The notes beneath the pieces are model-generated. The model was not told the origin of the DNA, did no database searches, and was given only the letters and a program-made list of their open reading frames with translations. Shown piece after piece: positions 2,624-18,411 of a stretch of 22,144 nucleotides of DNA; the stretch's first letter is position 1, and each line of letters opens with the position of its first letter. A program made the position numbers and the translations under genes. The stretch lies in the IMG/VR virus record IMGVR_UViG_3300006789_000204, positions 1 to 22,144 of that record; one strand, 5' to 3'. Origin of the DNA: a virus.

Positions 2624-3142
2624 ATGATATTAGGATTAGATATTTCAACTTCAATTACTGGAGCTTCAATAATAGATAAACATGGCTCTCTAGTTTATTG
2701 TGAGGCTTGGAGAACAGATAAAAAAGGGTTAACCTTCTATGAAAAGCTGGATTTGATTAAACAAAACGTAAAGAACGTTAAATCCAATTTTAAAATAGCG
2801 GCAATTTACGTCGAGGAGCCAATGGGAATGTTCGCTCGTGGAAGATCTTCCGCGCAAGTTATTTCTAAAATCCAGAGATTTAATGGAGCGACGTGTTGGA
2901 TGGTTAGAGAATTGTTTAATAAAGAACCTCATTATATACATGTTGCAACCGCTAGAAAAGCATATGGAATAAAAGTCCCACGTGGATCGAACACAAAAGA
3001 AATTGTTTTGGACAACGTTGTTGCAAGGGAAACGAATTTTTTAGTTGAATATACACGCCAAGGAAACTGTGTAAAGGGAACCTATGATCGTGCAGATTCA
3101 GCCGTGGTTGCAAGAGCAGGGTATGGTTTGTTTAATAAGTAA
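2624..3142 (+). CDS. RuvC-family Holliday junction resolvase
   Basis: This 172-residue protein has an RNase H-like fold of the RuvC type. The first beta strand ILGLDISTS carries the first catalytic Asp (D6), IYVEEP gives the second acidic position (E64/E65), and the C-terminal helix start TYDRADSAVVA supplies the last acids (D155/D158). These match the acidic tetrad of RuvC nucleases, which resolve four-way junctions using Mg2+. In a phage the role is to clear recombination and replication branches before packaging; T4 uses the unrelated endonuclease VII (gp49). The start is fixed: an in-frame stop at 2609 leaves ATG 2624 as the only ATG, and D6 must be included. The 12 nt before the ATG contain no G, so there is no Shine-Dalgarno. 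A single-stranded-DNA or other RNase H-fold role is less likely but possible. Confidence 0.82.
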   Translation: MILGLDISTSITGASIIDKHGSLVYCEAWRTDKKGLTFYEKLDLIKQNVKNVKSNFKIAAIYVEEPMGMFARGRSSAQVISKIQRFNGATCWMVRELFNKEPHYIHVATARKAYGIKVPRGSNTKEIVLDNVVARETNFLVEYTRQGNCVKGTYDRADSAVVARAGYGLFNK

Positions 3143-3189: not shown

Positions 3190-4125
3190 ATGCACTTTGA
3201 AAAGCTTCAGATTCTTGAGGACATATTAGGAGATTGTATACAGTCAAAAGATGAATGCCTCTTCTTTTGTCCTTTCTGCAAACACCACAAAAGAAAGATG
3301 TCTATTAACATATCTAAAAACTCATATAAATGCTGGGTGTGTGATACTAGAAGTAGAAATATTTATTCTTTAGTTAAAAGAGTTGGCGATAGTTTTCATA
3401 AACAGAAGTGGTTGAACCTCACTAATGTAGTGGAAATATCGAAATTTGAAGAATTATTTAAAGTTCAAGAAAAAGAAGTTAGACTTCAAAGAATCGATTT
3501 GCCATTTGAATATATGTTTTTGGCTGGTAAAAATATGCCAAAGTCAGCGACTGTCGCATTAGACTATCTTTTAGATGATAGAGACATTGATCGCTCTGAT
3601 ATATTTAAATGGAAAATAGGATATTGTGATAAAGGGAGATATAGAAATAGAATTATAATTCCATCTTTTGACAGCGATGGGTACTGTAACTATTTTGTTG
3701 CTAGAAGCTATACTGGTGATTGGATGTCATATAAAAACCCACCGGTATCAAAAAACATTATATTTAATGAACTTATGTTAGATTGGGAAGAGCCAATTGT
3801 ATTAGTGGAAGGCGTGTTTGATGCTATAAAGGCTGATAATGCTATTCCACTATTGGGTTCCACCTTGAGCACACAATCCTTATTGTTTAATAGACTATTG
3901 CAAACCAAGCCAACAGTATATTTGGCGTTAGATAACGACGCAGAGAAAAAGTCTTTAACATTAATAAAAAACATGATATTATATGGACTGGATGTTTATA
4001 AGATTGATACATCTGGATATGAAGACGTTGGCTCGATGTCAAAAAAAGAATATTTACAAAGGAGAAAACAAGCTGAATTAATCGATTCAGATAGTTTTTT
4101 GTTATTGAATGTTGGCATCGCCTAA
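3190..4125 (+). CDS. DnaG-type DNA primase (zinc finger plus Toprim)
   Basis: This 311-residue protein has the two core parts of a bacterial/phage primase. An N-terminal zinc finger has FCPFCKHH (C27, C30) and KCWVCD (C48, C51) and serves to recognise the priming site. A Toprim catalytic domain has IVLVEGVFDAI (E207, D211) and VYLALDNDAEKK (D248, D250), which bind the metal ions for RNA primer synthesis. There is no helicase domain, so it resembles the stand-alone T4 gp61 arrangement rather than the T7 primase-helicase. The start is fixed by an in-frame stop at 3175, with ATG 3190 the only ATG before the zinc finger, and there is no Shine-Dalgarno. Its 3' end overlaps the next gene by 17 nt. 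No replicative helicase lies nearby in this window. Confidence 0.88.
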   Translation: MHFEKLQILEDILGDCIQSKDECLFFCPFCKHHKRKMSINISKNSYKCWVCDTRSRNIYSLVKRVGDSFHKQKWLNLTNVVEISKFEELFKVQEKEVRLQRIDLPFEYMFLAGKNMPKSATVALDYLLDDRDIDRSDIFKWKIGYCDKGRYRNRIIIPSFDSDGYCNYFVARSYTGDWMSYKNPPVSKNIIFNELMLDWEEPIVLVEGVFDAIKADNAIPLLGSTLSTQSLLFNRLLQTKPTVYLALDNDAEKKSLTLIKNMILYGLDVYKIDTSGYEDVGSMSKKEYLQRRKQAELIDSDSFLLLNVGIA

Positions 4126-4377: not shown

Positions 4378-4653
4378 ATGAAGATTAAAGCAATTAAATG
4401 CTTGAATTGTAATGATATAGTATACTCTCGCGCACCAGATGATTTTAGAGAGTGCTCGTGCCAGCAAGTTTTTGTGGACGGAGGGTTTAGTTATTTTAAA
4501 CATGGTGCACTACCTGGCGCTGAATTCAAAACAATAACAGTTAATATTGGTGTGAGTTTAGGAGACTTACATGAAGACTGGAATTCTATGAAAGACGAAT
4601 ATGGAATTATTAAAGAATCTGATAAAGATGAAGGGACAATGTACAAAGTATGA
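4378..4653 (+). CDS. Small zinc-ribbon protein
   Basis: This 91-residue protein has a likely four-cysteine zinc ribbon: KCLNCNDI (C8, C11) and ECSCQQ (C26, C28), followed by VFVDGGFSYFKHG. The spacing and the 'VDGG--Y' strand resemble a small uncharacterised zinc-ribbon family common in phages (DUF7695-like by recall). The C-terminal half is acidic. ATG 4378 is preceded by AAAGGGA, a reasonable ribosome site. Its stop overlaps the start of the SbcD-SbcC gene by 4 nt (ATGA), so translation is probably coupled. A nucleic-acid binding or accessory role in recombination is possible but only from context. Confidence 0.7.
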   Translation: MKIKAIKCLNCNDIVYSRAPDDFRECSCQQVFVDGGFSYFKHGALPGAEFKTITVNIGVSLGDLHEDWNSMKDEYGIIKESDKDEGTMYKV

Positions 4654-7600
4654 AATTTGCGCACATCGCTGATACACATATTAAAAATTTAAAATATCAT
4701 TATGAGTATCGTATGGTTTTTAAAGAGTTGTATGACAAACTTCGCGAAGAAAAAGTAGATTATATTATTCACTGTGGAGATATTGCACACACTAAGACAC
4801 AACTATCTCCAGAATTTGTTGAATTATGTTCTAATTTTTTATCTGAATTAGCTTCCATAGCACCTACTTATTTAATTCTGGGAAACCACGATGGTAATCT
4901 TAAGAACAGTGGCAGACAAGATGCTATTACACCAATCGTGGAGGCGCTTAACAATCCTAATTTATTTTTATTGAAAGAAAGTGGGGAGGTAAATTTAAAT
5001 GGAAACTTTACTCTTAATGTTCTTAGTGTTTTTGATCGTGATAATTGGATCAATATTCCGTCCGATGCTGACACGATTAGTATTGCTTTGTACCATGGCG
5101 CTATTTCTAATAGTCGGACTGATTTGGGCTGGATCATGGAACATGGTGAAGACGACTTATCAATCTTTAAGGGGCATGATTTTGCGTTTTTAGGTGATAT
5201 ACATAAAACAAATCAGATACTAGATCACGACGGAAAAATAAGATACGCTGGCTCAACTGTACAGCAAAATCACGGTGAGACAAATGACAAAGGGTTTTTA
5301 GTATGGGATATTAAGGATAAAAAAGACTTCACATGTCATCATGTGGTGTTAAAAAATCCCAAGCCCTTTATTACAATTGAATTAACACCGAAGGGGCGAA
5401 TGCCGCGAAAATTGGATATTCCAAAGGGCGCACGAGTTCGCCTTGTATCGAACAACAACTTACCCCTTGATACAATGAAACGCGCAGTAGAGGTTGCTAA
5501 ACATAGATTTAAGCCTGAGAGTGTAACGTTTTTAAATAGAGCGATGGGGCAAAGAGGTTCTGTTGATGAATTAACAGACGGACTAGAGAACGACAACCTT
5601 AGAGACATTGTTGTACAAGAAGAATTGATTAAAGAGTACTTAAAAGACTTTCAAGCAGATGAAGAATTGTTGCAGCGCGTGCTGCGACTTAATTCTAGAT
5701 ACAATGTTGTTATTGAAGAAGGAGAAGAAATTACTCGCAATATCAATTGGAAGTTGGACAAGTTAGAGTGGGATAATTTATTTAATTATGGCGAAAGTAA
5801 TGTAATTGATTTTAAAAAACTTTCTGGTATTGTAGGAATATTCGGTAAGAACTTTTCAGGTAAATCCAGTATTGTTGATAGTATACTTTTCGCTTTGTTC
5901 AATTCTACTAGTAAAAAAGAGCGTAAGAACCTTAACATCATAAATCAAAATAAGAATGTGGGTAAAGCAAAGTTGCAACTTTCAATTGGTAATAACAAAT
6001 ATGTTGTTGAAAGAGACTTAGAAAAGTATACTAAGCGGCTTAAAGGTGAGGAAAGTATAGAAGCAAGAACAAGTTTAAACTTTGAAGCGTGTAACGAAGT
6101 GACTGATACAACTGAAAGTTTAAATGGCTTAACAAGAAATGACACTGATAAAATTATAAGAAAACAATTTGGCACTCTTGACGATTTTCTTATGACTTCA
6201 ATGTCATCTCAATTGGGCTCACTTCAATTCATTAGCGAGGGCTCCACAAGAAGAAAAGAAATACTTGCTAAGTTTCTTGACTTAGAAATGTTTGATAAAA
6301 AGTTTAAATTAGCAAAAGAAGATGCAACCGATTTACGAGGCGCACTGAAGCGCTTAGAGGGAAAAGAGTTTGGTGATAATATTTTTGAAGCAGAAAAAGC
6401 AATCATTTATAATGAAGCTCAAACGCGCAAGCATGTTGAAAATTGCGAGGACACCAAGAAACAATTAAAAACAATACAAGAACAGATTGACGAAACACAG
6501 AGGGCTATAGACTCTATTCCAACTGAGGTTGTTAACATTAAAGAGGTGAGCGAACAAATCAGCGAAAAAGAAAAGGGGTGTGGAAATATAATTGCTGATA
6601 TCATCAACTTGCAAGATAAGCTTGTAGACAAGGAAACTCTTCTTAAGAAAATTAATGAGTTTGTAGTTTGTTTTGATATTGAAGAATTACACAATAAGAA
6701 AAAGGATGTTATTGCAAGAAATGCTTTGATAAATAAAATTACCGATGAACTGTGTGTAATAGAAAATAGCATGAAGGTGAAGAAGAAAAAGAAACAACTT
6801 TTAGAAGAAGTGCCATGTGGAAATAAGTACCTTGATTGTAAATTTATATGTGACGCACACAGCGCAGAAACTGAATTGCTTGATTTAGTGCGAGAGGTAA
6901 AAAATTTAAACAACGTTGCAGTTCGGGTTAATGAGGAGTTAGAAGATTTAAATCCAGATAAGTTAGATGAACATTTAGAAAAATATAATCAGCTGTTTGA
7001 TAAACAAAAAGATACTGAAAATGAAATTTCCACAACAAAGCTTTTGATTGAAAAAAATGAAATTGCTTTAACCTCTTTAGAAAAGGAACTTGAAACACTT
7101 AACCAAAAGAGCGCACTCTATTACGACAACAAAGAGGTTATTGAAAATAAAGGATCGTTCATTAAGCAGCTGTCAAAAGAAAAGAAACTTTATTTAGAAA
7201 AAGAGAATGAACTACAAGAATGCCAAGGTGCATTAATGGAATATTATAAAGAGCATGGTTCGTTAGAACAGAAGCTAAATTCTCTTAAAGAACAAAAGCA
7301 AGAATTGGCAGATCTTCGTGAAGAATACTCTGCTTATGATCTGTTTATGAGGTGCATGCACACTAATGGCATTTCATATGACATTATTAAAAAGAAGCTT
7401 CCTGTGATCAATAATGAGGTTGCAAAGGTTATTGCAAATGTTGTTGATTTTGAAGTGTTTTTTGAAAATGATGGAAAGCACATGAAAATATTCATTAAGC
7501 ATCCTAAACATGAACCTCGCCCAATTGAAATGGGAAGTGGAGCAGAAAAAACAATATCAGCCATGGCTATTAGATTGGCTCTACTTTCAGTCTCATCACT

Positions 7601-7805
7601 TCCTAAGTCAGATATTTTTATTCTTGATGAACCCGGCACGTCGTTAGACGCAGACAACATGGATGGCTTTATTTCTATTTTAGAACTAATTAAAGTGTAT
7701 TTCAAAACTGTCATCTTGATTTCTCATCTTGATAGTTTGAAAGATTGTGTTGACACACAGATAGTAATAGATAAGAAAGATGGGTTTGCCCATATAGCTG
7801 TATGA
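4650..7805 (+). CDS. SbcD-SbcC (Mre11-Rad50; T4 gp47-gp46) fusion nuclease-ATPase
   Basis: One uninterrupted 1051-codon frame joins two proteins that are normally separate. Residues 1 to about 350 are a Mre11/SbcD calcineurin-like phosphoesterase: IADTH (D8, H10), HCGDIAH (D44), LGNHDG (N79, H80), ALYHG (H149) and LGDIH (H185). From about 365 on is a Rad50/SbcC ABC ATPase: Walker A GKNFSGKS (399-406), long coiled coils with an apex at 723-734, ABC signature GSGAEK (962-967), Walker B IFILDEP (D993, E994), D-loop SLD and H-loop H1026. The pair resects and processes DNA ends and hairpins; in T4 it drives recombination-dependent replication. ATG 4650 overlaps the upstream stop as ATGA, with no close Shine-Dalgarno. 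The apex departs from the usual CxxC hook, having C723, C730 and C734. All catalytic motifs of both halves are present, so the fusion looks functional. Confidence 0.92.
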   Translation: MKFAHIADTHIKNLKYHYEYRMVFKELYDKLREEKVDYIIHCGDIAHTKTQLSPEFVELCSNFLSELASIAPTYLILGNHDGNLKNSGRQDAITPIVEALNNPNLFLLKESGEVNLNGNFTLNVLSVFDRDNWINIPSDADTISIALYHGAISNSRTDLGWIMEHGEDDLSIFKGHDFAFLGDIHKTNQILDHDGKIRYAGSTVQQNHGETNDKGFLVWDIKDKKDFTCHHVVLKNPKPFITIELTPKGRMPRKLDIPKGARVRLVSNNNLPLDTMKRAVEVAKHRFKPESVTFLNRAMGQRGSVDELTDGLENDNLRDIVVQEELIKEYLKDFQADEELLQRVLRLNSRYNVVIEEGEEITRNINWKLDKLEWDNLFNYGESNVIDFKKLSGIVGIFGKNFSGKSSIVDSILFALFNSTSKKERKNLNIINQNKNVGKAKLQLSIGNNKYVVERDLEKYTKRLKGEESIEARTSLNFEACNEVTDTTESLNGLTRNDTDKIIRKQFGTLDDFLMTSMSSQLGSLQFISEGSTRRKEILAKFLDLEMFDKKFKLAKEDATDLRGALKRLEGKEFGDNIFEAEKAIIYNEAQTRKHVENCEDTKKQLKTIQEQIDETQRAIDSIPTEVVNIKEVSEQISEKEKGCGNIIADIINLQDKLVDKETLLKKINEFVVCFDIEELHNKKKDVIARNALINKITDELCVIENSMKVKKKKKQLLEEVPCGNKYLDCKFICDAHSAETELLDLVREVKNLNNVAVRVNEELEDLNPDKLDEHLEKYNQLFDKQKDTENEISTTKLLIEKNEIALTSLEKELETLNQKSALYYDNKEVIENKGSFIKQLSKEKKLYLEKENELQECQGALMEYYKEHGSLEQKLNSLKEQKQELADLREEYSAYDLFMRCMHTNGISYDIIKKKLPVINNEVAKVIANVVDFEVFFENDGKHMKIFIKHPKHEPRPIEMGSGAEKTISAMAIRLALLSVSSLPKSDIFILDEPGTSLDADNMDGFISILELIKVYFKTVILISHLDSLKDCVDTQIVIDKKDGFAHIAV

Positions 7806-12428: not shown

Positions 12429-14030
12429 ATGAGTTATCAACCCTCAAAAAAAGAAATTCTAAAAGAAATTATAAAATGCGGTAGAGATCCATCCTATTTT
12501 ACAAATAGTTATGCGAAAATTTCTCACCCCTTAGAAGGGTTGATTCCTTTTAAAACTTATGATTATCAAGGACAGTTGTTAGAAGATTATAATGATTATC
12601 GTTTTGTCGTGATCTTGAAGGCACGTCAGCTTGGTATTTCTACTATTACGGCTGTATATATTGCATGGTTGATGCTTTTTCATCGTGACAAAAATGTTCT
12701 TGTTATGGCAACAAAATTTGGAACTGCTGCCAACCTAGTTAAAAAAGTAAAGAGTATTATAAAGAGCCTACCTTCGTGGTTAAGGCAAGTGGCAACAGTT
12801 TCAATTGATAACAGAACTTCATTTGTGTTAAGTAATGGCTCTGAAATAAAAGCATCTACAACATCGTCCGACGCTGGGCGTTCAGAAGCCCTTTCATTGC
12901 TGGTTATTGATGAGGCGGCACATGTTGAAGGTTTGGATGATTTGTGGACTGGCTTGTATCCCACGCTTTCAACTGGTGGACGATGTATTGCGCTTTCAAC
13001 TCCGAATGGTGTTGGTAATTGGTTTCATAAAATTTATGTTGAAGCTGATCAACAGAAAAATGATTTTCATCCTGTGAAATTGATGTGGTATACACACCCT
13101 GATCGTGATGATGAGTGGTTTGAAAAAGAAACCAGAAACATGTCTCAAAGACAAATTGCACAAGAGCTTGAGTGTAATTTCAACACCTCCGGAGAAACTG
13201 TGATTCATCATGGCGATATAAAGAGGTTGAAGCAGAACGTTAAAGAGCCAAAACATAGAACTGGGTTTGATAGAAACTTTTGGATATGGGAAGAGTATAA
13301 GTCTGATAATACGTATTTATTAACAGCTGACGTTGCAAGGGGTGATGGTGCTGACTTTTCTGTTTTTCATATTATGAAGTTAGAGACTTTAGAAATAATT
13401 GCTGAATATCAGGGTAAGGTAACTCCTGATATATTTTCCACGATCGTTCACGATGCTGGCTGTGAATATGGCAATTGTATGATTGTGGTAGAAAATAATT
13501 CTGTTGGCTTTACTGTCTTGGACAAATTGATGGAAAGAAACTATCCTAACGTCTTCCACTCAGTAAAATCAACGCATGAATATATCGATCAGTATCGAGC
13601 CGAAACAAAAAGTAACGCTATTGCCGGGTTTACCACCTCTTCAAAAACTCGTCCTTTGATTATTGCAAAGTTTGAAGAATTCATTAGAAATAAATTATTA
13701 ACTATTTACTCTTCAAGGTTTTTGGCAGAGTTTGATACGTTTGTTTGGTATCATGGGAAGCCGGAAGCTCAAAGGGGTTATAATGATGATTTAATTATGG
13801 CTTGTGCTATTGGGTGTTGGGTGAGAGATACAGCTATTATAGAAAATCAAAGAGCTGTGGAATATAATAAAGTTTTTATTGAGAGTATGATAAAATCAAA
13901 TTCTGTTATAGACACACATATATCTGGTATGCACAAATCACCAGCGCTGGAGGTGAATGACAAGTATTTTGATAATATTAAAGAAACTAATAAAACTAAG
14001 AAAGAATATTTATGGTTGTTAAAAGGATAA
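12429..14030 (+). CDS. Terminase large subunit (T4 gp17-like DNA packaging motor)
   Basis: This 533-residue protein has both halves of the packaging motor. The N-terminal ATPase shows an adenine-binding-type start (YDYQGQLLEDY), a Walker A-like LKARQLGISTIT (about 63-74), Walker B LLVIDEAAH (D161, E162) and the coupling motif ALSTPNG (188-194). The C-terminal RNase H-like nuclease shows LLTADVARGDGADFS (D301), MIVVENNSVG (E355) and YNDDLIMA (D453/D454), which would cut concatemers at start and end of headful packaging. T4 gp17 is 610 residues, so this is a somewhat shorter version. It would dock on the portal encoded 6 nt downstream. No good Shine-Dalgarno precedes ATG 12429. No insertion or intein is seen. 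Confidence 0.95.
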   Translation: MSYQPSKKEILKEIIKCGRDPSYFTNSYAKISHPLEGLIPFKTYDYQGQLLEDYNDYRFVVILKARQLGISTITAVYIAWLMLFHRDKNVLVMATKFGTAANLVKKVKSIIKSLPSWLRQVATVSIDNRTSFVLSNGSEIKASTTSSDAGRSEALSLLVIDEAAHVEGLDDLWTGLYPTLSTGGRCIALSTPNGVGNWFHKIYVEADQQKNDFHPVKLMWYTHPDRDDEWFEKETRNMSQRQIAQELECNFNTSGETVIHHGDIKRLKQNVKEPKHRTGFDRNFWIWEEYKSDNTYLLTADVARGDGADFSVFHIMKLETLEIIAEYQGKVTPDIFSTIVHDAGCEYGNCMIVVENNSVGFTVLDKLMERNYPNVFHSVKSTHEYIDQYRAETKSNAIAGFTTSSKTRPLIIAKFEEFIRNKLLTIYSSRFLAEFDTFVWYHGKPEAQRGYNDDLIMACAIGCWVRDTAIIENQRAVEYNKVFIESMIKSNSVIDTHISGMHKSPALEVNDKYFDNIKETNKTKKEYLWLLKG

Positions 14031-14036
14031 AAATTA

Positions 14037-16016
14037 ATGGCAGACAATAAACATAATCCCAAAAATCCCGCCTCTACCCTGTTTAAAAAGCTTACCCGTT
14101 TATTTTCAGGACCAATTATAAACTATAGATCGCAAACCACACGACAACTTCGAAGAAGAAGATTAGATAAATATGCAAAAATATTTAAAGACACTGCAGG
14201 ACAAAAGTTTCAAAGAAGTTCTTATAATCCATATGAGTCGCTTACAGCAAACATCATGGCTCAACAAAATAGAATGCAGCGCTATTCTGATTTTGATCAA
14301 ATGGAATTCACTCCAGAGATTGCTTCTGGGTTAGACATCTATGCTGATGAAATGACTACGCACAGCGATTTAAGACAAATGTTGCGTATAGAATGTGACA
14401 ATGAAGAAATTAAATCGATTTTACATTCCCTTTACATAAACATTCTTAATATAGAATTTAACATGTTTGGTTGGTGTCGCACCATGTGCAAGTATGGAGA
14501 TTTTTATCTGTATCTAGACATTGATGAAGAGATAGGTGTTAAAAATGTTATTGGACTTCCTGCGCCACAAGTAGAAAGACTTGAAGGTGAAGATAAGACA
14601 AACCCAAACTATGTTCAGTTTCAATGGAACGATGCAGGGATAACGTTGGAAAATTGGCAGATGGCACATTTTAGAGTTTTAGGTAATGATAAATATGCAC
14701 CATATGGCACATCTGTATTGGAAGCTGCCAGGAGAATTTGGAGGCAATTGACACTTCTAGAAGATGCAATGATGGCTTATCGTATTGTCCGCGCACCAGA
14801 AAGAAGGCAGTTTAAGGTGGAAGTGGGCAATATTCCACCACAAGATGTTGAAGCTTATATGCAGAAAGTTATAACTTCAATGAAGAGAAATCAAATTGTA
14901 GATCCAGATACGGGACGTGTTGACTTGCGTTACAATCCGATGAGTGTTGAAGAAGATTATTTTATTCCTGTGCGCAATGGAGTTGGTACTGAAATCACTA
15001 CATTGCCTGGCGGATCGTATACGGGCGATATTGATGATGTCAAATATCTAAGAGATAAACTATTCTCAGCTTTAAAAATACCACAATCATATTTGGCTCG
15101 CGGCGAGGGTGCAGATGAAGATAAAACCACTTTAGCTCAAAAAGATATTCGATTTGCTAGAACTATTCAAAGATTACAAAGATCAATCATTTCTGAATTA
15201 GAAAAAGTAGGAATTATTCACCTTTATATACTGGGCTTTAGAGGGGATGATTTGACTTCCTTTAAACTTAAATTAAATAATCCTTCTAAAATTGCTGAGT
15301 TGCAAGAGCTTGAACATTGGAAAACTAAATTTGATACAGCAGCCGGCGCGACGGAAGGGTATTTTAGTAGAAGGTGGGTAGCCGTTAAAATACTTGGCAT
15401 GTCTGAAGAAGAGTATCTTAGAAATCAAAGAGAGATGTTCTTTGATAGAAAGCTCGATGCAGCGCTTGAAGCCGTTGCCGAAGAGGGTGCAGCGATGGGC
15501 AGCGCTGGCGGTGGCGATGCGGCTGAGTTTGGTGAAGAAGACATGGGCGGCGAAGAAGACATGGGCGGCGAAGAAGACATGGGCGGTGAAGAAGAAATGG
15601 GCGGTGAAGAAGAAATGGCACCCGAAGAAGACTTGGGCGGTGAAGAAGACACTGCGTTGCTGGCTGCTCCCCCAGCAAAGCGTGATGATGGTTATGTCTA
15701 TCACCGTGATGGATCTCACACAAGCCCACGTGGAAAGGGGCATGTATACACACCAGTCTCAGTTGAGCGCGGGTGGGATAACAGACCCGCTGGAGCCCGC
15801 TCCAGACACTGGGGAAGCTGGGGCGCTATTGAAATGGGAAAATTACCTAGAAGACAAATAATCCCTGGAGGTTCAGAACTGTTTAGTCTTGGTAAAGGGA
15901 TTCCTGAGAATGTTGATACTAATTATAAAGACGAAGAACGTAAATTATTCGAAGTTACAAAAGAAATCAAAGATTTAATTAAGGAGCTAGAAATAAGAGA
16001 TGAAGTTAAAACATAA
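14037..16016 (+). CDS. Portal vertex protein (T4 gp20-like) with acidic repeat tail
   Basis: This 659-residue protein would form the dodecameric ring for DNA entry and the head-tail joint. The N-terminal 470 residues read as a T4-type portal: a basic start, MEFTPEIASGLDIYADEMTTHSD, then KYGDFYLYLDI, HFRVLGNDKYAPYGTSVLEAARRIWRQ, and VKYLRDKLFSALKIPQSYLARG in the clip/stem region. T4 gp20 has 524 residues; the extra length is a C-terminal extension. That extension has seven Gly-Glu-Glu-Asp-Met-Gly type repeats (about 499-540), a Gly/Arg/Ser/Trp-rich stretch with RDDGYVYHRDGSH, and a helical end KEIKDLIKELEIRDE. AAAGGAT precedes ATG 14037. The gene overlaps the next by 17 nt. Identity is from motifs and the position after terminase. 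Confidence 0.92.
   Translation: MADNKHNPKNPASTLFKKLTRLFSGPIINYRSQTTRQLRRRRLDKYAKIFKDTAGQKFQRSSYNPYESLTANIMAQQNRMQRYSDFDQMEFTPEIASGLDIYADEMTTHSDLRQMLRIECDNEEIKSILHSLYINILNIEFNMFGWCRTMCKYGDFYLYLDIDEEIGVKNVIGLPAPQVERLEGEDKTNPNYVQFQWNDAGITLENWQMAHFRVLGNDKYAPYGTSVLEAARRIWRQLTLLEDAMMAYRIVRAPERRQFKVEVGNIPPQDVEAYMQKVITSMKRNQIVDPDTGRVDLRYNPMSVEEDYFIPVRNGVGTEITTLPGGSYTGDIDDVKYLRDKLFSALKIPQSYLARGEGADEDKTTLAQKDIRFARTIQRLQRSIISELEKVGIIHLYILGFRGDDLTSFKLKLNNPSKIAELQELEHWKTKFDTAAGATEGYFSRRWVAVKILGMSEEEYLRNQREMFFDRKLDAALEAVAEEGAAMGSAGGGDAAEFGEEDMGGEEDMGGEEDMGGEEEMGGEEEMAPEEDLGGEEDTALLAAPPAKRDDGYVYHRDGSHTSPRGKGHVYTPVSVERGWDNRPAGARSRHWGSWGAIEMGKLPRRQIIPGGSELFSLGKGIPENVDTNYKDEERKLFEVTKEIKDLIKELEIRDEVKT
15531..15656 (+). 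repeat. In-frame 18-bp tandem repeat in the portal gene, seven units
   Basis: Seven 18-bp units of the form GGYGAAGAAGACATGGGC encode G-E-E-D-M-G. Units 2 and 3 (15549-15566 and 15567-15584) are identical. Units 4 and 5 change Asp to Glu, unit 6 begins with Pro, and unit 7 decays. The array is codon-aligned, so copy number could change without a frameshift. It creates a spurious long reverse-strand open frame. Confidence 0.9.
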
Positions 16017-17799: not shown

Positions 17800-18411
17800 A
17801 TGTCAAAACTGCTTCTTAGAGAATATTATGAACTATGTCCAGGTGGCATTTGTCAAGATCTTCTAACAGAGGAAGAGAAAAGACTCTCAGCGCAAGGTAT
17901 TGTTTTCATGTCTGGAATCATGCAACGCTGCGACACAAGAAATGGTAATGGGCGAATCTATCCTAGACCGATCCTAGAAAGAGAAATGTCAAATTACGGC
18001 AAACTTGTTAAAGAGAACAGAGCTTTAGGGGAACTTGATCACCCAGAAGATTCTATTATCAATCTCAAAAATGCTTCACATCTCGTTACTGATGTTTGGT
18101 GGGATGGTGATGCTGTTATGGGCAAAGTTAGAGTTTTAAACACGCCAGCGGGACAAATTCTTTCAGGTTTAATAGAATCTAATGTAAAGCTTGGGATTTC
18201 TTCTAGAGGACTGGGCTCAGTTAAAGAAAGCAGTGGCGATACTATAGTTGAAGATGATTTTCAATTAATTTGTTTTGATTTCGTTTCAGAACCATCAACC
18301 CCAAATGCGTACATGGTTAAAGAAAGTAGACAAAGAGAGCTTATGAACACTGTTTTTACCAAAGGTGACAAAATTAATCGAGCATTGAATGAAATATTAA
18401 GGATACAATAA
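17800..18411 (+). CDS. Prohead core protease (T4 gp21-like, herpesvirus-assemblin fold)
   Basis: This 203-residue serine protease cuts scaffold, core and capsid proteins during prohead maturation. T4 gp21 has 212 residues and cleaves after [LI]-x-E. Visible family motifs are GIVFMSGIMQRCDTRNGNGRIYP (about 33-55), GELDHPED with the catalytic His (H81), VMGKVRVLNTPAGQI, and GISSRGLGS with the catalytic Ser (S134 or S135). DDFQLICFDFVSEPS follows. The N-terminus contains L-L-R-E near residue 8, a possible self-cleavage site. GAGAGGGG ends 7 nt before ATG 17800. Its genes downstream encode proteins with IKEEL peptides that may be its substrates. Confidence 0.9.
   Translation: MSKLLLREYYELCPGGICQDLLTEEEKRLSAQGIVFMSGIMQRCDTRNGNGRIYPRPILEREMSNYGKLVKENRALGELDHPEDSIINLKNASHLVTDVWWDGDAVMGKVRVLNTPAGQILSGLIESNVKLGISSRGLGSVKESSGDTIVEDDFQLICFDFVSEPSTPNAYMVKESRQRELMNTVFTKGDKINRALNEILRIQ

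Follow-up and report, generated by a model that had tools for sequence, protein, structure and literature searches.

A fused Mre11-Rad50 gene in a probable large aquatic phage with T4-type capsid genes

Background

Genes in which Mre11 and Rad50 (SbcD and SbcC) are joined in one frame were described in 2011 by Yoshida, Claverie and Ogata, who reported such fusions for Mimivirus (R555), Bacillus phage 0305phi8-36, plasmids, bacteria and eukaryotes (PMC3175470). R555-like sequences reached their highest abundance in viral fractions of marine and other aquatic samples; phage primases were noted on the same scaffolds as R555-like copies, and phage ownership was proposed (PMC3175470). In phage T4 the corresponding proteins are gp47 and gp46; mutants in them are defective in recombination, replication and host-DNA degradation, as cited in PMC5105663 and also stated in PMC3175470, and the biochemistry of T4 Mre11/Rad50 is an ongoing field (PMC13402864). 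Here we analyse a fused Mre11-Rad50 gene at positions 4650 to 7805 of a stretch of viral DNA of 22,144 nucleotides (IMG/VR record IMGVR_UViG_3300006789_000204, positions 1 to 22,144; hereafter the window). The gene, its parts and the neighbouring and capsid genes described below lie on the + strand. An initial annotation of the window had asked whether such a fusion was already described for related phages, which the 2011 paper answers with yes. The fusion is not a new kind of gene; what is added here is its scale, its genome context and an oddity in its hook.

Results and discussion

The open reading frame (ORF) at 4650-7805 begins with ATG, contains zero internal stops and encodes 1051 amino acids. 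Pfam profiles matched Metallophos at residues 1-156 (E 6.6e-14) and then AAA_23 at residues 371-613 (2.7e-11), and SMC_N covers residues 369-1029 with 38.2 bits, slightly below the 40-bit cut-off. Among the PHROG families, SbcC matched residues 302-1046 (2.5e-51) and SbcD residues 1-492 (4.6e-31); the SbcD profile has 989 positions and its match extends deep into Rad50, which suggests that this profile includes fused members. NCBIfam, Pfam and PHROG agree that the first third is Mre11/SbcD and the remainder Rad50/SbcC, with both domains in one frame and Mre11 first, which is the R555-type order. The uninterrupted chain proposed in the initial annotation is thus borne out by families, motif conservation, predicted structure and relatives.

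A first scan of IMG/VR yielded 380 relatives, of which the best 80 (54-75% identical, all full length) were kept; a second scan, with Microcystis phage Mel-JY01 as query, yielded 546, of which again the best 80 were kept (28-34% identical to the window). In the first scan, each of the best 80 loci shows a single stop-free frame, and those of the second are likewise all single frames (1008-1074 amino acids, some ended by contig edges), so that 160 out of 160 relatives examined over both scans are fused; because each scan kept the best 80 only, rarer split forms might occur among the weaker matches. Separate genes in the order 47-46 are found in T4, P-SSM2, S-SKS1, Sinorhizobium phage phiM7 and the examined Vibrio phages, in which genes 47 and 46 overlap by four bases. 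A lost stop or a misassembly might in principle join two such neighbours, since the split genes of Vibrio phages D386 and MAR10 adjoin or overlap and one error would suffice. We give this explanation practically no credence in view of the uniformly fused relatives and of the junction itself, where R363, N364 and W367 are invariant or near-invariant. The ratio of nonsynonymous to synonymous changes (pN/pS; Nei-Gojobori counts against ten close relatives, with pS near saturation and values therefore rough) is 0.28 at residues 345-375, compared with 0.17 for Mre11, 0.13-0.21 for the Rad50 lobes and 0.43 for the coiled coil; the frame across the junction is under purifying selection. The initial annotation had named two findings that would speak against the fusion, an assembly error at the junction and relatives divided there by a stop and a start. 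Independent contigs, all of them fused, exclude the former, and in neither clade was the latter seen among the 160 relatives examined.

The Mre11 phosphoesterase and capping domains occupy residues 1-296 (4650..5537), as judged from the Pfam Metallophos match, the metal-site residues and comparison of the model with SbcD. The phosphoesterase motif set DxH, GD, GNHD, H and GDxH is complete, and D8, H10, D44, N79, H80, D81, H149, D183 and H185 are invariant in 82 out of 82 aligned fusions. The model of this half matched Staphylococcus aureus SbcD (7dog_A) with Z 25.5, 275 aligned residues and a root-mean-square deviation (rmsd) of 3.4, and E. coli SbcD with Z 24.1, while GpdQ and purple acid phosphatases matched only at Z 17-18 and over residues 1-237. 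As modelled, the first half has the Mre11 core fold with its capping domain, and it is a predicted Mn-dependent nuclease.

Two models cover the junction: an AlphaFold2 model of the whole chain, built with 44 sequences (predicted local distance difference test score, pLDDT, 79; predicted template modelling score, pTM, 0.46), and one of residues 1-374 (pLDDT 85, pTM 0.77). In both, a flexible stretch at residues 297-319 (5538..5606; pLDDT mostly <65) is followed at residues 320-358 (5607..5723) by a helix-loop-helix corresponding to the Rad50-binding domain of Mre11, with helices 320-334 and 338-358. Structure alignments run through this helix pair both with T. maritima Mre11 (3tho_B; model residues 1-358) and with E. 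coli SbcD (6s6v_A; 1-356), with a large rmsd that is due to a hinge. Since the pair can be aligned through to solved complexes, the models indicate that the Rad50-docking domain was retained, its binding to Rad50 being predicted, and that the new joint is a short covalent linker at about residues 359-365 (5724..5744), located by alignment, model and pN/pS and containing the near-invariant R363-N364. The initial annotation had regarded residues 330-370 as linker; most of these residues belong to the Mre11 helices, and the covalent tether, which does exist, is limited to about 359-365. Its length of about seven residues is of the same order as the 9-12 residues that, by the estimate of the 2011 paper, a linker would need to span the corresponding gap in T. 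maritima (PMC3175470).

These features also bear on whether the protein acts as one chain. It could be a polyprotein that is cut, or its Rad50 half could additionally be made from an internal start, either of which would result in a working two-subunit complex as in T4. The flexible stretch at 297-319, of low confidence in both models, would agree with a cut, but it precedes the helix-loop-helix and is therefore off the natural subunit border; moreover, the linker is short and conserved, and no conserved start codon is present at residues 335-385, a Met occurring at position 340 or 341 in no more than 22 of 82 fusions. We thus regard processing into two subunits as improbable. The forced 1:1 ratio of nuclease and ATPase suggested previously holds as far as the gene implies it and no conserved internal start exists at 335-385, although proteolysis may still separate the halves.

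In the second half, the Rad50 N-lobe (residues 366-560; 5745..6329; Walker A at 399, Q-loop at 521) and C-lobe (residues 891-1051; 7320..7802; signature at 961, Walker B and D-loop at 990-1000, H-loop at H1026) were assigned from Pfam, motifs and structure matches, and enclose an antiparallel coiled coil (residues 571-890; 6360..7319) delimited by DSSP helices of the model. The motifs of the ATP-binding cassette (ABC) are GKNFSGKS at 399, the Q-loop at 521, MGSGAEKT at 961, FILDEP..SLD at 990 and H at 1026; they are conserved among the aligned fusions and complete the bipartite head with Walker A, Q-loop, signature, Walker B, D-loop and H-loop, the signature being GSGAEKT and not LSGGE. The model of the head matched Rad50 of an Mre11-Rad50 structure (3av0_B) with Z 30.1 over 357 aligned residues (rmsd 5.0). 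In the whole-chain model the first Rad50 strand starts at 366 and the coiled-coil helices span 546-903.

Upstream of the fusion are genes for a RuvC-like Holliday-junction resolvase (2624..3142; PHROG 159, 2.2e-10) and a DnaG-like primase (3190..4125; PHROG 47, 2.8e-39; dnaG profile, 8.1e-14), both also assigned by synteny. Among the 43 close relatives with >4.3 kb of upstream sequence, the primase is present in all 43 and the order resolvase-primase-fusion in 42. In the distant clade a primase match was present upstream in 79 of 80 loci, and the window-type RuvC-like gene was not detected in these 80 loci. In 15 long records (76-204 kb) every strong SbcC and SbcD profile match falls in the fused ORF, and three extra SbcC matches, at E about 1e-4, were to coiled-coil proteins. 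As the sole clear SbcC/SbcD-like gene in these records, the fusion appears to stand in for gp47/gp46. RecA/UvsX was detected in 10 of the 15.

Taken together, the gene very probably encodes an Mre11-Rad50 nuclease made as one chain, which in a large T4-type aquatic phage corresponds to gp47/gp46 of T4. With respect to its activity, stoichiometry, resection polarity, role in replication and docking in cis or trans, we infer the following. Two fused chains would form the usual M2R2 head, in which the Mre11 parts would pair and bear the two-metal nuclease site, while ATP would close the Rad50 heads. The helix-loop-helix at 320-358 would be seated at the base of the coiled coil and coupled to the first Rad50 strand by the seven-residue tether, and hooks at the coiled-coil tips would link the arms. 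ATP-driven opening and trimming of double-strand ends would then generate 3' tails, which could be loaded by the phage UvsX/RecA for recombination-dependent replication, a module to which the adjoining resolvase and primase would also belong.

A different main role, in defence, counter-defence or breakdown of host DNA as in nuclease systems of the structural maintenance of chromosomes (SMC) type (Jet/Wadjet, Lamassu), is unlikely in our view, if slightly less so than processing into subunits. The Rad50 half has matches to SMC chains of Jet and Lamassu as well, and host-DNA degradation is among the functions that fail in T4 46/47 mutants (PMC5105663). However, the nuclease half is a genuine SbcD/Mre11, the best solved-structure matches are Mre11-Rad50, and the gene belongs to a conserved resolvase-primase module and is present in every member examined, rather than occurring sporadically.

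Several points weigh against a single-chain counterpart of gp47/gp46. The case is built from sequence, predicted folds and gene neighbours. With the pTM of the whole-chain model at 0.46, the helix-loop-helix may dock on the same or on the partner chain. UvsX was not seen in five of the 15 long records, which may be fragments. The two conserved tip cysteines are spaced C-x6-C in the window, which differs from the CxxC of zinc hooks. Finally, the trees of the Mre11 part and of the Rad50 head, which speak for this reading in that both group the sampled phage fusions (ultrafast bootstrap, UFBoot, 99 and 92) and which recover the same two main clades, were calculated from few, long-branched sequences with few split forms, leaving out bacterial and eukaryotic fusions and those of nucleocytoplasmic large DNA viruses (NCLDV). 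Their topology fits one fusion event for these phages; over a wider set of replicons, several fusion events have been inferred (PMC3175470).

The apical hook of the coiled coil was located by alignment at C723-x6-C730 (PCGNKYLDC; 6816..6839), with C730 invariant, and zinc binding at this site is putative. The C-x6-7-C type is shared by the window and 74 of the 80 members of its clade, the other six having CxxC, whereas all 80 hooks of the distant fused clade are CxxC, as are those of T4, P-SSM2, S-SKS1, phiM7, Melnitz, D386, MAR10 and the E. coli protein. In a tree of the heads calculated without the hook columns, the six CxxC members are found in at least five separate places, and constraining them together, as a group defined beforehand by this trait, was rejected (approximately unbiased test, p-AU 8e-60). 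L020 and L025 have heads that are 91% identical and hooks of different type, and L053 carries a CxxC tip on a coiled coil that otherwise resembles that of L064. For pairs with a head identity of 0.65-0.70, the identity of hook segments amounts to 0.63 within the CxxC type but to 0.28 between types, and that of the coiled coil to 0.25-0.28 in either comparison. We conclude that the two hook types were switched at least five times between fusions with similar heads, and that this switching was local, either by recombination or through repeated replacement. The loci that we cite for hook switching, together with 6816-6839 of the window, are L025, L037, L039, L053, L071 and L075. One possible interpretation, which we put forward with considerable reserve, is that the Rad50 tip is an exchangeable part and that the hook sets pairing and serves as a private dimer code for the single-chain enzyme. 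No publication on hook switching was found in the literature searched, which is weak evidence of novelty.

The remaining genes point to the type of virus. The window contains genes for a terminase large subunit (12429..14030; PHROG 2, 1.9e-49), a portal protein (14037..16016; PHROG 213, 2.3e-73) and a head maturation protease (17800..18411; PHROG 207, 9.9e-54), and the best reading is that the window derives from a large aquatic phage of marine origin with a T4-type capsid and packaging module (terminase, portal and prohead protease). The cultured phage closest by terminase is Flavobacterium phage immuto (41%), in which no match to PHROG 77/100 was found. A run of repeated GGEEDM-like units is located at 15400-15660, in the C-terminal part of the portal gene. 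Two adjacent ORFs of 389 amino acids (251-1420 and 1442-2611) with similar C-termini resemble tandemly arranged paralogues encoding a structural protein; neither had a PHROG match. Directly upstream of the fusion, a small ORF of 91 amino acids (4378..4653) ends with a stop that overlaps the ATG of the fusion as ATGA; the PHROG search gave no family match for it. The strand opposite the fusion gene holds nothing beyond short chance frames, and neither the window nor L083 contained an Rfam match at gathering score.

Origins other than phage were also considered. Of twelve matches to genome contigs, many lie on short contigs assigned to metagenome bins and resemble phage DNA that was binned along with them. 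In the 2.8-Mb WOR-3 'chromosome' CP070664 (L093:1776-8100), the match is flanked by runs of N and is a fragment of this phage type, which looks like a scaffolding error. Matches to plasmids were partial and of low identity, none of them covering 80% of the query, and the one inspected in detail, from a Roseovarius plasmid, has separate sbcD and sbcC genes.

A few relatives have unusual gene structures. In the 484-kb uncultured phage LR756508 (L083:6665-7579), an insert with a zinc-finger/HNH-like ORF splits the fused gene near residue 189, just past the GDIH motif; this insert may be an intron that encodes a homing endonuclease. The frame of L095:3-2975 opens with an intein-like C-terminus joined just past the GNHD position of Mre11, which is probably an intein at the nuclease site. 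The 735-kb phage LR756503 (L084) has, in addition to the fusion, a separate match of the SbcC kind (670999-672753), which contains four in-frame stops under translation table 11 (one TAG, three TAA).

Conclusions

In 2011 only short reads were at hand to suggest a phage origin of the aquatic fusions. The loci analysed here settle by example that the abundant aquatic fused Mre11-Rad50 genes belong to large tailed phages with T4-type heads, in which the fusion would replace gp47/gp46 within a conserved resolvase-primase module. An enzyme of one chain and fixed stoichiometry would be a handy laboratory object for studying how ATP binding by Rad50 gates the Mre11 nuclease, and the swapped hooks raise the question whether the zinc hook sets the choice of partner.

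The top structural match of the window model in BFVD was a fused Tupanvirus protein, with 24% identity along the full length (1309 columns); fusions of other NCLDV, Harvfovirus among them, came next, and then Tenacibaculum phages pT24 and PTm1. The comparison with Mimivirus R555 was made through this Tupanvirus match, and direct kinship with R555 is putative. The R555 type and the window protein have in common the domain order, the retained helix-loop-helix and a short linker; they differ in length (1351 versus 1051 amino acids), in that the window gene resides in a T4-type phage, and in the C-x6-7-C hook of most close relatives of the window. Two cultured phages carry the same fusion: Microcystis phage Mel-JY01 (WWT39521; 32% identical), with a primase-like gene directly upstream, and Tenacibaculum phage pT24 (gp019, L187:4890-8822; 1310 amino acids, CHKC hook, about 15% identical). 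In these records the fusion is hidden by the annotations 'AAA domain' and 'metallo-phosphoesterase', respectively. That the T4 and E. coli genes are separate, as the initial annotation stated, was confirmed. T4 gp47/gp46 resembles the window protein in the two enzymes, the gene order (47, then 46) and the type of virus, but the T4 genes are separate, with 46.2 and 46.1 between them, and gp46, with a CPTC hook, is much shorter (560 amino acids). E. coli SbcD/SbcC shares the folds of the window protein, at a low sequence identity of about 16%, but is encoded by two adjacent genes and has a CPLC hook.

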